From Sedimenticola sp. (GTDB lineage Bacteria; Pseudomonadota; Gammaproteobacteria; Chromatiales; Chromatiaceae): a stretch of 64,000 nucleotides of DNA. The notes under the pieces were generated by a model. It was not told where the DNA came from, made no database searches, and saw nothing but the letters and a program-made list of their open reading frames with translations. Both the position numbers and the translations under genes were made by a program. Shown piece after piece: positions 135 through 32,032 of the stretch. Position 1 is the first letter of the stretch; every line of letters begins with the position of its first letter. The DNA is taken from NCBI GenBank assembly GCA_026994195.1, contig JALWRH010000050.1:1-64000 (forward strand), read 5' to 3'.

Positions 135-794
135 TCGGATTCCGGAAAACAGCCCCCTGAAGCGCAACAAGAAGACACAGCCGCCAGTCAAAGCGCTGAA
201 GAGGAAAAGGATACCAGCGGCGGAGAAGAACCAGATCAGCAAGAATCAGGTAAAGACGATCAATCCGGAGAACAGGAGGAAAGCGGCCCGCCATCTGAAG
301 AACAGCCGACCGAGCAGAAGCCCGAAGGCAGCAATGCGGACAAAGAGCAGAAAGGCGATCAGGGAAAAGACCGGGATGAAAACGCTACAGAGGAATCCGG
401 CGACCAGGACAAGTCCCAGGGAGATCGGGCTGCTGCTGGTTCTCCGCCCCCCAAAGCGCCCTCATCAGGTCAGCCGCCCCCTCAGCATCCGGGGTCTGCA
501 GCAAAGGAAACTGAAACCTTCGATGCAGAACAGGCTGGAAAAGATCAGGGCGCCGTGGAGAAATTTGATCAACAGGGTCAACAGCCCGACAAGGGCGCAG
601 AGCAGCAAAGCGATCAGGACGTACAGGGCTCCAATGCTGAAAAAGCCGGCAATGGCGCCATGGGTCTCATGGAACAATGGTTGCAGCAGGCGGAAGGCAA
701 TCCCGCCTACCTCATGCGCAATCAGTTCATGCTGGAAGAAAAGCGTGCTGTCAGCACCCGGTCTGCACCCCTGCAGGAACCGCGCCCCTGGTAA
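3..794 (+). CDS. BatB-like VWA/TPR protein, C-terminal part (5' end outside window)
   Basis: The open frame enters from the left edge and ends at TAA 792-794, so only the last 263 residues are visible. It begins with four copies of an 11-residue unit (SGDQESDQQQS and variants), followed by about 180 residues rich in Gln, Glu, Asp, Ser and Lys that look disordered. It ends in a folded-looking tail, MEQWLQQAEGNPAYLMRNQFMLEEKR. That tail resembles the end of BatB-type (Bacteroides aerotolerance) proteins, which carry VWA and TPR domains upstream and sit in a membrane complex. The VWA and TPR domains themselves would lie outside the window, so the assignment rests on the tail and the low-complexity linker. 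It converges on secF, which ends 65 bases downstream. Confidence 0.65.
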   Translation, partial: SGDQESDQQQSSGNQESDQQQSSGDQESEEQQSSGDQESDQQQTSDSGKQPPEAQQEDTAASQSAEEEKDTSGGEEPDQQESGKDDQSGEQEESGPPSEEQPTEQKPEGSNADKEQKGDQGKDRDENATEESGDQDKSQGDRAAAGSPPPKAPSSGQPPPQHPGSAAKETETFDAEQAGKDQGAVEKFDQQGQQPDKGAEQQSDQDVQGSNAEKAGNGAMGLMEQWLQQAEGNPAYLMRNQFMLEEKRAVSTRSAPLQEPRPW

Positions 795-20774: not shown

Positions 20775-22703
20775 TCAGGCGCTCAGTACGTCCAGATCGC
20801 GGCTGCAGCGTATGCTCTGGGCAAACTCCACATCCGCACCCTCGGGATACACCTGGGACACGATCCAGATCTGGGTCAGCTTGTCGCTGAGATCCGTGAG
20901 GGCTTTCAGGGCATAGCGGGTGCGCTCTTCATCGAAGAAGGCAAAGGGCTCATCCAGGAAGGCGAACTGATCGCCATGCACACGGCGCACCAGCAGCTTC
21001 TCTGACAAAGCCAGGCGCAGGGCCAGCATGATCTGCCGCTGGGTGCCACTGGACACTTCATCCAGGTCCATGAAGTCCCGCTTGTCACTGGAGAATACCC
21101 GCACGGTCAGATCCGGGTCGATACGCAGGTGCTCGTAACGGCCCTGGGTAAATACCGGCAGGGTGCGGGCCACCAGGTCGCGGATATCCCGGTTGAAGTT
21201 GCTGGAAACATAGCCGGAAGCCCCTTCCAGGAGTTCGATGGCTTTGAGACGTTTCTCCCGGTTGGCGTCCAGCTCCGCCATCTTGGCCTCCAGGCCGTCG
21301 ATGACTTCACTCAGGCGGGCCACCTGGCGCACACGTTCCATTTCCCGGTCCACTTCCTGACCATGGGCCCAAAACTGCTCTTCCTTGCGGCTGATATGCT
21401 CGCGCAACCAACGCGCTTCCTGTTCCACGTAATTGCGCATCTCGGAAACACCCGCCAGCACATCTTCCACCCGGGACAACAAGGCGGCATAAGCGCTTTC
21501 TTCGGGACGTTCCAAAGCCTCTTCTGTCATGGACAGGCTCATGGCTTCTCCGGCGGCCACATCCGTATCCTCTTCGGCGGCAGTCTCCTGGGCTGCCTCT
21601 TCCTGAATCACGGTTTCCTGCGCGCTTTCCCCGGTATCACCCTCGAAGGCGGAAACCGCCCTGGCTTTCTCCAGGGCATCGCCCAGCACCCGGGCGTCTT
21701 CCGCCAGGCGCGTGGCGCGGGAACCATGGCTGGCAGCCCGTATCCAGAACAACAACATGAGTACGGCGAACACAATGCCCGCAATGCCGATATAGGGAAT
21801 CCAGGCATCCTGCCAGTTCGGCACTTTCTGCTGCAGGAGATGCAGCAACTGCTGGGACTGGGCCAGATCCGGTTTCTTTGCCAGCATGAACCAGGCGCCG
21901 CCGCCGATGAGGGCCAGCACGAAGCTCAGGAAGCGCCAGAAGCGCGCCCGGCCGCGCTTGCTGCGGGCGCGGCGGATCTGGGGATGATTCTCGGCATAGA
22001 TGTCCGCCGCCTGCTCCAGATTCTCCACGGCGGACTTGTTGGCATTGACCTCAGCTTCCAGGGCATTCTTGCGGTCTTCCAGATCCACCAGATAGCCTTC
22101 CTGGAAATCCATCTCCTCCAGTTCCTGGCGCAAGGTCTCTGCTTCCGCATCCAGCTCTTCGCGCATTTCATCGAACTGGGCGATCTCTTCCTGGAAACTG
22201 ACCATCACATGTTCCAGGGGCGCGACACCCGCCATGGTCTTCACCGCAACGCTGTGGGGATGCGGCGTGGTGATCTCCCGCTGCGCCAGGTAGAAGGACT
22301 CCACGAATTCATCGAATTCATAGCCCAGAATATCGAACAGCTTGTCCGCCACGCTGTTCACGCCCCGGGCTACAGGATTCTCAGTGTCCCCGGCCAGGCT
22401 CAGGCGGGCGCTGTGATTGCCGTCCCGGTCGAGAAAACGCGACAGCTGGTAGTCTGTACCTTCCACGGAGAACTCCAGCACCACGGAACAGTGATGCTCG
22501 CCCCAGCGCAGGACTTTGTCCAGGTCGTCGGGGCCCAGGGAGAAGGTTCGGCCGAACAGGGCGAAACAGACGGTTTCACCAATGGTGCTCTTGCCGGATT
22601 CATTCTCACCGCTGATGGCGATGATGCCTTTTTCAGGAATATCCCCCAGATCCAGGGAGGCATACTTGAGGACGTTTTCTGCTTTTACCGACTTGATGAT
22701 CAT
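20775..22703 (-). CDS. Rad50/SbcC/YhaN-like ATPase with two membrane segments
   Basis: The 642-residue protein has an N-terminal ATPase half with Walker A GENESGKST (32-40) and a Q-loop in YLAQREI (Gln141). A coiled coil (about 165-235) follows, then two hydrophobic segments (about 255-274 and 303-321). A second coiled, acidic region comes next. The C-terminal half has the ABC signature SSGTQRQIMLALRLALSE and Walker B FAFLDEPFAFFDEERT. This is the SbcC/Rad50 layout with the hook region replaced by a membrane hairpin, as in Bacillus YhaN. No SbcD/Mre11-like nuclease gene is adjacent. The start overlaps the end of the 65-residue gene by four bases. Function is unknown; a role in DNA or RNA end processing is a guess. 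Confidence 0.75.
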   Translation of the reverse strand: MIIKSVKAENVLKYASLDLGDIPEKGIIAISGENESGKSTIGETVCFALFGRTFSLGPDDLDKVLRWGEHHCSVVLEFSVEGTDYQLSRFLDRDGNHSARLSLAGDTENPVARGVNSVADKLFDILGYEFDEFVESFYLAQREITTPHPHSVAVKTMAGVAPLEHVMVSFQEEIAQFDEMREELDAEAETLRQELEEMDFQEGYLVDLEDRKNALEAEVNANKSAVENLEQAADIYAENHPQIRRARSKRGRARFWRFLSFVLALIGGGAWFMLAKKPDLAQSQQLLHLLQQKVPNWQDAWIPYIGIAGIVFAVLMLLFWIRAASHGSRATRLAEDARVLGDALEKARAVSAFEGDTGESAQETVIQEEAAQETAAEEDTDVAAGEAMSLSMTEEALERPEESAYAALLSRVEDVLAGVSEMRNYVEQEARWLREHISRKEEQFWAHGQEVDREMERVRQVARLSEVIDGLEAKMAELDANREKRLKAIELLEGASGYVSSNFNRDIRDLVARTLPVFTQGRYEHLRIDPDLTVRVFSSDKRDFMDLDEVSSGTQRQIMLALRLALSEKLLVRRVHGDQFAFLDEPFAFFDEERTRYALKALTDLSDKLTQIWIVSQVYPEGADVEFAQSIRCSRDLDVLSA

Positions 22704-22897
22704 GCCAGCCCCTCTTCTTCAAGCTGACGCAGGCGCACCAGGGCCATTTCCATAGCTTCCTGATAGGCAGCCTCGTCAAAATCCTCGCCGGAATTCCGGC
22801 GGCGTTCAAATTCCGCGTTACAGTAGGCTACGAATTCTTCCGAAATAGCCGTTTGTCGTTGGGCGGGATGAGGTGCGAGTTCTGTTTCCAGGGACAT
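22700..22897 (-). CDS. Small acidic protein coupled to the Rad50-like ATPase
   Basis: The 65-residue product (SEEFVAYCNAEFERRRNSGEDFDEAAYQEAMEMALVRLRQLEEEGLA) is acidic and predicted helical, with no signal peptide. AAGGA lies about eight bases before the ATG, and its stop overlaps the ATPase start (ATGA), so the two are translationally coupled. I do not recognise a family. The real coding status is supported by the ribosome binding site and the overlap; a role as an ATPase partner or adaptor is inferred from position. Confidence 0.7.
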   Translation of the reverse strand: MSLETELAPHPAQRQTAISEEFVAYCNAEFERRRNSGEDFDEAAYQEAMEMALVRLRQLEEEGLA

Positions 22898-22967
22898 AGT
22901 CTTGTTCCTTCATGTCTAGGCAGACAGGATGTCTGTCGAAAAAATGCTTGTCGTGCTCCGGCAGGCG

Positions 22968-24785
22968 TCAGATCCTGCGAAAATAAACGGCCTGTGCCGG
23001 CACGTCCACTTCCTGAACCTGCAGCTTGACGGTTTGGTCGAGCTGCATGTCCTCGGTTCGGCGAATCCGGGTCTCCAGAGCCAGCTGTGGAATCATAACA
23101 ACCGCCTTGCGTTCTTCCAACGCCAGAATGACAGCTTCCCCCTGCCAGTGCTCCTGTTCCTTGAGCCAGATCAGTTTCCAGTGCAGATTGGACAGGCGCT
23201 CAGCGCGGCGGATGATGCCCCCCACGGCCCCTGCCTCGGCCACCCTTTCAGTCACTTTCTCTTTATCCAGGGGAGTAGCGCCCGTCACGAAGGCGCGCAG
23301 TTGCTGGTGCACCACCAGATCCATGTAGCGGCGCAGAGGGCTGGTGGTGCGGGCATAGTAGTCCAGGCCCAGGCCAAAATGCCGGCCCGCGCTCATGGCT
23401 GCATTGCTGGGCTTGAACAGGCGGCGGTAAGCATGGGACTCCGACAGGGTTTCCGGGTGGCGGATCTCCTGGGGTTCGGGCTGCACGGCGTAGGGAATGC
23501 TGATGCCGTTGGCCTCGGCAAAACGTGCGGCCGCTTCTCCAGCCATGAGCATGGCATCAGTGACCATCTGGCGGGAAGCCAGACGCGGCAACGGGCGGAT
23601 CTGCACCTCGCCATCCACGACCTTTACACTGACCTCGGGCAGATTGATCTGGGCGGCATTGCGCGCCAGGCGTGCTTCGCGGTAGCGGCGGGTAATGGCC
23701 AGCAGAGGTGCAAACGCTGCCTCTTCCAGGCGCTGTTCCGCAGCCTCGTAACTGATGCGCTGCACCCGGACGCGGCTGGGGGTGATCTCGATATCCGTCA
23801 CCTCCGCCGCATCATTCAGCTTGAAACCGAAAGACAGGGCCACGGATTCTTCCTGCAGCCCCAGTCCCAGGAGATCCGTGGTAACCGGAGGCAACATCTG
23901 CACCATGCCTTCAGGCAGGTAGAGATTGGCGCTGCGGGAACGGGCCGCCAGGTCCAGGTGGGAGTCCGGTTTCACCAGGGCAGCCACATCAGCCACATGC
24001 ACCCAGATGCGTTCCCCATCGAGACTGATGGCATCATCCGGGTCGGTATTGCCTTCATCATCGATGGCCCAGGATTCCAGATGGGTCAGATCCCGGCGGG
24101 GTTCGTCCACCAGGGGGGGCACCGGCAGGTCCGGCGATTCCAGGTTGGCGCCCTGGCGCGCCGGCCAGGGGTTGTAAGACGCCGGCCAGTACCCACAGCG
24201 CAGCAGAAACGCGTGGGCGCTCTCGGGAGACTCGGTGATATTCAAGGCGCTGAGTACCCTGCTTTTGGCGGTCTGTCCCAAAGCCACACGCTCCACTTCA
24301 CCCAGACGGCTGCGGTCGGCTTCTTCCAGCTTTCCCTGCTGCACCCGCTCAAGAAAGTCCGCCCATTCCTGAGCCTCCCGGGCTTTGCGCTCCCGGGCGG
24401 CCCGGTCATCTGCCACCGCCTGGGCCTTGCGCCCGCGGATGCTGCGTACAGAACCTTCGAAGTACAGTCCGTCGCGCAGCAGCTGCCAGACGCCCCAGGC
24501 ACTGGCCGGGGTGTACTCGCCGTAAACCAGCTCCGCCACTTCTTCCAGTGACGCCTGCTCGCCTTCGAGGAGTTCCCAGGCTTCCTCCAGATTGCCTTCC
24601 CCGGCATCGAGCCCCCCCAGATCCACTCCCGGCCCCGGATGCAGCAAGCTGATGTCCTTGTCCCGCACCCGCTTGGTCTTGCCGTCCTCGAATCGGATTT
24701 CGATCTTGTCTCCGACGGACGCCACCACGGCAGGGCGTATTTTGTACAACACCAGGGCGCCTGCCCTTGTTCCTGATTCAGCCAC
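22968..24785 (-). CDS. RNase II/RNB-family 3'-5' exoribonuclease
   Basis: RNB-domain enzymes degrade RNA processively from the 3' end. The central domain shows HLESWAIDDEGNTDPDDAISLDGERIWVHVADVAALVKPDSHLDLAARSRSANLYLPEG, where the Asp cluster binds catalytic magnesium. Later come YAVQPEPQEIRHP and YARTTSPLRRYMDLVVHQQL. The N-terminal part (about 1-200) lacks the usual paired cold-shock domains and resembles the VacB-like/RNB proteins of Chromatiales and cyanobacteria. I prefer the GTG at 24785 (then ESGTRAGALVLYKIRPA). An ATG at 24842 would add 19 residues that fit less well. It lies 70 bases upstream of the small protein and ATPase, possibly in one operon. Confidence 0.88.
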   Translation of the reverse strand: MAESGTRAGALVLYKIRPAVVASVGDKIEIRFEDGKTKRVRDKDISLLHPGPGVDLGGLDAGEGNLEEAWELLEGEQASLEEVAELVYGEYTPASAWGVWQLLRDGLYFEGSVRSIRGRKAQAVADDRAARERKAREAQEWADFLERVQQGKLEEADRSRLGEVERVALGQTAKSRVLSALNITESPESAHAFLLRCGYWPASYNPWPARQGANLESPDLPVPPLVDEPRRDLTHLESWAIDDEGNTDPDDAISLDGERIWVHVADVAALVKPDSHLDLAARSRSANLYLPEGMVQMLPPVTTDLLGLGLQEESVALSFGFKLNDAAEVTDIEITPSRVRVQRISYEAAEQRLEEAAFAPLLAITRRYREARLARNAAQINLPEVSVKVVDGEVQIRPLPRLASRQMVTDAMLMAGEAAARFAEANGISIPYAVQPEPQEIRHPETLSESHAYRRLFKPSNAAMSAGRHFGLGLDYYARTTSPLRRYMDLVVHQQLRAFVTGATPLDKEKVTERVAEAGAVGGIIRRAERLSNLHWKLIWLKEQEHWQGEAVILALEERKAVVMIPQLALETRIRRTEDMQLDQTVKLQVQEVDVPAQAVYFRRI

Positions 24786-29909: not shown

Positions 29910-30536
29910 ATGGCTTCGAAAGATATTAGAAGATACACTGATTTTCCATCAGTGCTGTATATGCTGAGGAATAGGAAGTTAACCCTGCTTAACCCGTCAA
30001 GCTGGGATGATAGGAATGACGCCTACTTCCTTGAGGTATATAAGGAAAAAAAGAATCTTTCGTCTGCTCTCGCGCTGTGTTTTTCAGAGAAAAATGAAAC
30101 GTACCACCATTGGAGCGTGTTTTGCTCTAGAGAAAACGGTGTGTGTATTGTATTCGATAGAGAAAAATTCATAGAACACCTAAGCGGTCAGCAAGGGATT
30201 ACTTTTGGGCCAGTTAATTATAGAACAATTGGTGATACCGGCTGGCCCGATCTGGCAATAGATGATTTGCCATTTTTGAAAAGGTGGGCGTTCAGAGACG
30301 AGTCGGAATTTCGAATTATCTACTCTGATGAATCCAGATCAGAAGAAACCAAAGATATTCATTTGCCGCTTTCTTGTGTGAAGAAAATAATGATCAATCC
30401 ATGGATTCCAGATCAGTTGTTTTTTGCCATTAAAGAAACGATAAAGGAAATCGATGGATGCAAGTCACTCGGTGTTGGAAAATCTAGGCTAATAAATAAC
30501 GACAGCTGGAAGATGGTCGGAAAAATAATTGCATAA
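29910..30536 (+). CDS. Cassette 1 protein, DUF2971-like
   Basis: The 208-residue protein reads YTDFPSVLYMLRNRKLTLLNPSSWDDRNDAYFLE, then ALALCFSEKNETYHHWSVFCSRENGVCIVFDREKF, and later LKRWAFRDESEFRIIY. This order (an N-terminal ligand-like loop, cysteine-serine strand, W-x-x-F/Y and G-V-C-I-x-F-D) resembles DUF2971 proteins, which have no established function and often occur in mobile or defence-linked regions. There is no signal peptide. The stop overlaps the inverse core GCATAAC, as in typical cassettes. A clear ribosome binding site is lacking. Base composition is AT-rich compared with neighbours, consistent with transfer. Confidence 0.7.
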   Translation: MASKDIRRYTDFPSVLYMLRNRKLTLLNPSSWDDRNDAYFLEVYKEKKNLSSALALCFSEKNETYHHWSVFCSRENGVCIVFDREKFIEHLSGQQGITFGPVNYRTIGDTGWPDLAIDDLPFLKRWAFRDESEFRIIYSDESRSEETKDIHLPLSCVKKIMINPWIPDQLFFAIKETIKEIDGCKSLGVGKSRLINNDSWKMVGKIIA

Positions 30537-31663: not shown

Positions 31664-32032
31664 ATGAAAAAACTTACTCTGATATTTTTGCAATTAGCAG
31701 TTGCTCCGCTTTCATGGGCAAGCACAGCAAACTGCAATATAGAAATTGAGGATGTAAATGCTGGCACTAAATACAATGTAGAGCAAAAGTTTACAAATCA
31801 ACCAGGTTCTGATGCCCAAAGGAAGCATTTCAAACTACCAGGGAGCAATTATTCCTGCACCTTAGCTTTTTTTAACCTTGAGAGCGGCACCATGTTGTCG
31901 TGCCAGTTTGATGAGTTAGGCCAAAATTTCGTGCAATCTGACCGAAGTATCATTGGTGAGGGTAATGCGAAAAACAATCTCAGCTTTCGCTATGAATCCT
32001 CTTTTTTTGTTTTACACTCAAGCTGCAAATGA
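31664..32032 (+). CDS. Cassette 3 protein, small exported protein of unknown function
   Basis: The 122-residue product begins with a signal peptide (MKKLTLIFLQLAVAPLSWAS) after AGGAG at good spacing. The mature part (ANCNIEIEDVNAGTKYNVEQKF...YSCTLAFFNLESGTMLSCQFDE...VLHSSCK) has four cysteines and looks like a compact beta-rich periplasmic domain. No family is recognised. The stop lies two bases before the inverse core GCCTAAC. It is AT-rich like the other cassette genes. Confidence 0.7.
   Translation: MKKLTLIFLQLAVAPLSWASTANCNIEIEDVNAGTKYNVEQKFTNQPGSDAQRKHFKLPGSNYSCTLAFFNLESGTMLSCQFDELGQNFVQSDRSIIGEGNAKNNLSFRYESSFFVLHSSCK

Follow-up and report, generated by a model that had tools for sequence, protein, structure and literature searches.

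Archaeal Rad50 and SbcC are ATPases with a bipartite ABC head, which carries Walker A, Q-loop, Walker B and D-loop motifs, and an antiparallel coil with a CxxC zinc hook; they are linked to Mre11 or SbcD, and solved complexes of Rad50 with the Rad50-binding domain of Mre11, a helical hairpin at the base of the coil, exist (3qku, 5da9). YhaN is another SMC/Rad50-like ATPase, with an exoribonuclease gene nearby; in the genome studied here it has about 1170 residues, and the gene for the YhaO nuclease lies directly before its own. LmuB of Lamassu, PbeC and mad3 of Mads are SMC-like ABC ATPases of defence systems that are encoded next to effector or other system genes.

Here we describe a locus from a 3.0-Mb draft genome of Sedimenticola (Sedimenticolaceae, Chromatiales, Gammaproteobacteria), whose closest named relatives are metagenome-assembled genomes of Sedimenticola and Thiolapillus. 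The window, by which we mean the whole stretch of 64,000 nucleotides that was analysed, encodes a Rad50-like ATPase and, directly upstream, a small protein that we call p65 (Table 1). We propose, with a probability of about 0.6, that the pair forms a previously undescribed two-subunit complex of the Rad50/SMC type, anchored in the inner membrane, with p65 as the only linked subunit and perhaps docked in the manner of Mre11. A literature search, which covered few subscription journals, found no report on this ATPase/p65 family.

Table 1. Features of the locus, in window coordinates or ATPase residues
Feature	Position	Strand	Basis or remark
Rad50-like ABC ATPase, 642 aa	20775..22703	minus	ORF list, domain models, predicted fold
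ATPase, N-half head	residues 1-160		Walker A GENESGKS 32-39; Q-loop Q141
ATPase, first coil	residues 161-255
ATPase, predicted TM1, periplasmic loop and TM2	residues ~256-276, ~277-297 and ~298-328		hydrophobicity
ATPase, disordered linker	residues ~350-400
ATPase, second coil	residues 402-518
ATPase, C-half head			signature SSGTQRQ 551-557; Walker B/D-loop FLDEPFAFFD 582-591; Gln617 at H-loop position
p65, 65 aa	22700..22897	minus	predicted helical hairpin, helices 18-36 and 42-61
ATGA overlap, p65 stop (TGA) and ATPase start (ATG)	22700..22703	minus	probable translational coupling
RNB-p65 gap, 70 bases	22898..22967	minus	no TATACT; the equivalent gap of many relatives has a -10-like TATACT
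RNB-family exoribonuclease, 624 aa	22968..24842	minus	PF00773, 9e-55; neighbour, judged outside the system

Results

The ATPase is Rad50-like, with a predicted membrane hairpin in place of the zinc hook

Rad50 and SbcC are the best matches of the ATPase in both sequence and fold. The protein matches AAA_23 at 4e-11, sequence models place both of its halves with Rad50 (PRK01156, 2e-22; SbcC, 4e-12), a 31-row profile aligns with archaeal Rad50 from M. jannaschii at 1.6e-38, and the Mre11/Rad50 structure 5dny is the best PDB match of the predicted model (E 9.5e-15; mean pLDDT 85). The bipartite head with its motifs and the antiparallel coil are shared. However, the ATPase scores far below the curated Rad50/SbcC cut-offs (79 against 847 bits, and 45 against 478), its coil is short, its signature is SSGTQRQ rather than LSGGE/Q, and it has a glutamine instead of a histidine in the H-loop. 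In 31 homologues there is little or no variation at Walker A, Gln141, the SSGTQRQ region, FLDEPFAFFD and Gln617. As the H-loop histidine has been exchanged for an invariant glutamine, the ATPase cycle may differ from that of Rad50.

Two hydrophobic segments occupy the place of the zinc hook, between the two halves of the coil. There is no CxxC hook in the ATPase of the window, nor at the hook position in 50 close homologues; a single CxxC occurs in two of the 50, in neither case at the apex of the coil. Among 157 distinct homologues, nearly every one has the two-span hairpin, the exceptions being L027 and L228, in which only one segment of the hairpin region exceeds the threshold. The conserved cases include a long form of about 750 residues (L197-L204, L214-L262), with the hairpin at about 364 and 410 and about 107 extra residues on its N-terminal side. 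Both the Rad50-type halves and the hairpin, as described in the sequence-only reading, are thus borne out. Across the 157 homologues, lysine and arginine make up 31% of residues before TM1, 4.5% in the loop and 24% after TM2, a strong positive-inside pattern that fits a predicted topology in which the heads are cytoplasmic and a short loop, of about 28 residues, reaches the periplasm.

A conserved membrane hairpin with a periplasmic loop, next to a signature and an H-loop glutamine that depart from Rad50, would also suit an ATP-driven sensor of envelope or membrane stress, in which a Rad50-like head has been reused for signalling or membrane remodelling and does not act on DNA. The lack of a constant DNA-repair neighbour of the pair speaks for this explanation as well. 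No transporter or signalling ATPase, however, is as close to the head as Rad50, and with only two membrane spans the protein is not a transporter by itself. We consider this the main rival to a DNA-related complex, but an unlikely one, at perhaps one chance in five.

p65 accompanies the ATPase

The 65-residue protein had been described as joined to the ATPase by an ATGA overlap. The overlap is present, and because the genes overlap by exactly these four bases at 128 of 154 homologous loci, it is not a chance arrangement; translational coupling is probable. Among 195 genomes of the order, of which 105 carry the ATPase (strong score, E < 1e-30) and 90 do not, p65 is found in the same 105 of 105 genomes. 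It is present in 79 of 80 named loci, and the exception, L151, is cut by a contig end within the ATPase. Most loci that have an intact upstream region and no match to the p65 profile keep a short ORF in the place of p65 (L205, L223, L238 and L239; L209 with a 3-base gap), while L208 shows only a 52-residue ORF of doubtful relation. Co-distribution and overlap support p65 as the partner of the ATPase.

The predicted fold of p65 is a helix-loop-helix (pLDDT about 92-96 over the helices), which by analogy may resemble the Rad50-binding hairpin of Mre11. The family has no match among Pfam, NCBIfam and PADLOC models, and Foldseek returned no significant match for the model. The possibility that p65 is a detached C-terminus of YhaO, to which it looks alike by eye, was rejected on the basis of a profile comparison (hhalign, probability 0.3%). 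Covariation between p65 and the ATPase in 147 paired sequences reached a maximum of about shuffle level.

The pair is widespread and persists amid unrelated genes

Over half of the sampled genomes of the order carry the ATPase, which is mostly single-copy and syntenic in near relatives. Two otherwise complete genomes of the order contain copies that are interrupted or have a premature TAG (G031:C1:1537050-1540335, and L076 in G132), which possibly represent decay. The pair also occurs in other gammaproteobacterial families and in a second class of the phylum, where one carrier is a complete genome of 4,719,581 bases and where the ATPase is far more distant. In other lineages the two genes stay together amid unrelated neighbours, among them hslVU-like and various other genes, named by inspection. 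In the window, ygfZ lies upstream of the RNB gene in divergent orientation, and an FGGY kinase gene, queF and smc follow on the far side of the ATPase. Two plus-strand ORFs of the window, 29910-30536 (208 aa) and 31664-32032 (122 aa), have no Pfam match.

A small upstream gene with an overlapping start is an arrangement that a defence or toxin-antitoxin module might also show, with an ABC-ATPase as effector and p65 as its antitoxin or regulator, and the head has weak similarity to the mad3, LmuB and PbeC models. Unlike those systems, however, the ATPase has a membrane hairpin, a core-like distribution and no adjacent effector or system genes; no defence gene lies in the immediate neighbourhood, and there is no effector domain. 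Searches of viral contigs gave no relative of the ATPase, and searches of phages and plasmids gave no full-length copy, only partial and distant head matches to known exonuclease and SMC ATPases. Together with the prevalence and synteny within the order, this makes a defence role quite improbable.

The RNB exoribonuclease is a neighbour of the pair

The exoribonuclease upstream on the same strand is indeed an RNB protein, with the aspartate motif invariant, an RNB domain with the catalytic aspartates and an S1 domain; its closest solved relative is 2r7d of the RNase II family. The sequence-only reading had considered it a possible partner in a nucleic-acid-processing system, which here would be one for RNA. 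The 70-base distance, the adjacency that is conserved in the clade of the window and the analogy with Bacillus yhaONM all favour such a partnership. Against it, RNB adjoins the pair in only 35 of 80 named homologous loci and in none of those retrieved when the search was widened to the class and the phylum, with RNB moving off while p65 stays. Moreover, of 41 genomes examined for RNB, 40 have it; 31 of the 41 lack the ATPase, and RNB is present in 30 of these. The one genome without a match is a draft of 85% completeness. As a core gene, RNB is simply a neighbour of the pair. On these data the proposed partnership is largely refuted, and we give it hardly any weight.

The pair often has a promoter-like element of its own, which also argues against a joint system with RNB. 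TATACT is the commonest hexamer upstream of p65, at 43 of 141 loci against 5.9 expected from shuffles, in sequences that are related and therefore do not count as 141 independent cases; inside the ATPase gene it occurs in 0 of 141. This enrichment points to a separate promoter in many lineages. A terminator and promoter scan of the window itself remained at chance level. At the 43 loci (e.g. L147, L092, L108), TATACT is surrounded by lineage-specific conserved blocks, such as CTCGCATTTTT...ACTCCCTATACTGG, CTAGAGAAATCGCG..AAGTCCGTATACTT and TGATGACCT...CTCCCTATACT. None of these blocks has a clear TTGACA at -35, and the element is possibly an activator-dependent promoter.

No SbcD- or YhaO-like nuclease shares the distribution of the pair

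ORFs and domain models of the window neighbourhood contain no Mre11- or SbcD-like gene, in agreement with the earlier claim that such a gene is missing nearby, and no YhaO gene adjoins the pair at the loci surveyed. As Rad50-type heads usually act with Mre11-type nucleases, the complex could work with an unlinked one (SbcD, YhaO or another metallophosphatase), with p65 as an accessory, and the genome of the window does have YhaO and four other Metallophos genes. However, SbcD, present in 26 of 105 carriers and in 18 of 90 genomes without the ATPase, is not associated with it; just 15 of the 105 carriers have a YhaO-like gene, and 64 have neither an SbcD- nor a YhaO-like match anywhere. An unlinked SbcD-like gene of the same distribution, which the sequence-only reading had suggested looking for, was therefore not found. 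The YhaO of the window genome, in addition, has its own YhaN. We regard an unlinked nuclease partner as improbable, though less so than a defence module.

The YhaO gene (420 aa) is complete and is followed by that for YhaN (1166 aa) on contig C27. The presence of this complete locus in the same genome speaks against the interpretation of the pair as a degenerate YhaNO locus. Other AAA/OLD-like genes lie next to it. The region (L037 7535-15848, contig C27 of genome G000) also contains an OLD-like ATPase/TOPRIM gene, an integrase-like gene and a helicase-type gene whose C-terminus is restriction-like, and is possibly a defence island, judging by names that come from inspection only.

The YhaN of the window genome has a similar SSGT- signature, and it scores 265 bits against AAA_27 (PF13514), whereas the ATPase of the pair scores 10.6 bits (E 0.42), below the cut-off of 22. 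The 21 YhaN sequences of the order have no membrane hairpin, so that the likeness of the hairpin to YhaN would concern the Bacillus protein alone. Ten genomes of the order have both the YhaN system and the p65-ATPase pair, which are therefore different genes. YhaON shows a strong inverse pattern within the order (10 of 105 ATPase carriers, 50 of 90 non-carriers), suggesting that the ATPase might replace it. This idea was rejected, since among 369 genomes of the class, with 36 ATPase and 24 YhaN carriers, five have both, when about 2.3 are expected; the pattern within the order is thus probably due to clade structure.

Discussion

Obligate co-distribution, overlapping genes, persistence amid unrelated neighbours and the lack of a linked nuclease fit a single two-protein complex. 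The cellular role of this complex is one that we infer, as follows. The ATPase would dimerize, with the membrane hairpins, instead of a zinc hook, joining the two protomers or setting their position. ATP binding would shut the heads on a ligand at the membrane surface, and homology suggests that this is most likely duplex DNA. p65 may dock on the coil near the heads, by analogy with the helical Rad50-binding domain of Mre11 or with a kleisin, and may gate the ATPase or recruit its target. In this model the complex acts as a tether or sensor, and not as a nuclease.

A bolder version of this model, which we put forward tentatively and at somewhat less than even odds, is that the pair represents a branch of the Rad50/SMC proteins that works without a nuclease and is anchored in the membrane, with a transmembrane hairpin in the role of the hook and p65 in that of the whole Mre11 or kleisin module. 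In Gammaproteobacteria and one further class of proteobacteria, such a minimal SMC-like complex would tether DNA to the inner membrane.

p65 is an unannotated protein family, and this Rad50-like ATPase is its sole known context. Rad50-like ATPases are usually understood through their nuclease partners. If our model is correct, the pair would separate tethering or sensing from cutting and, with about 700 residues in all, would offer a compact system in which these Rad50 functions can be tested.
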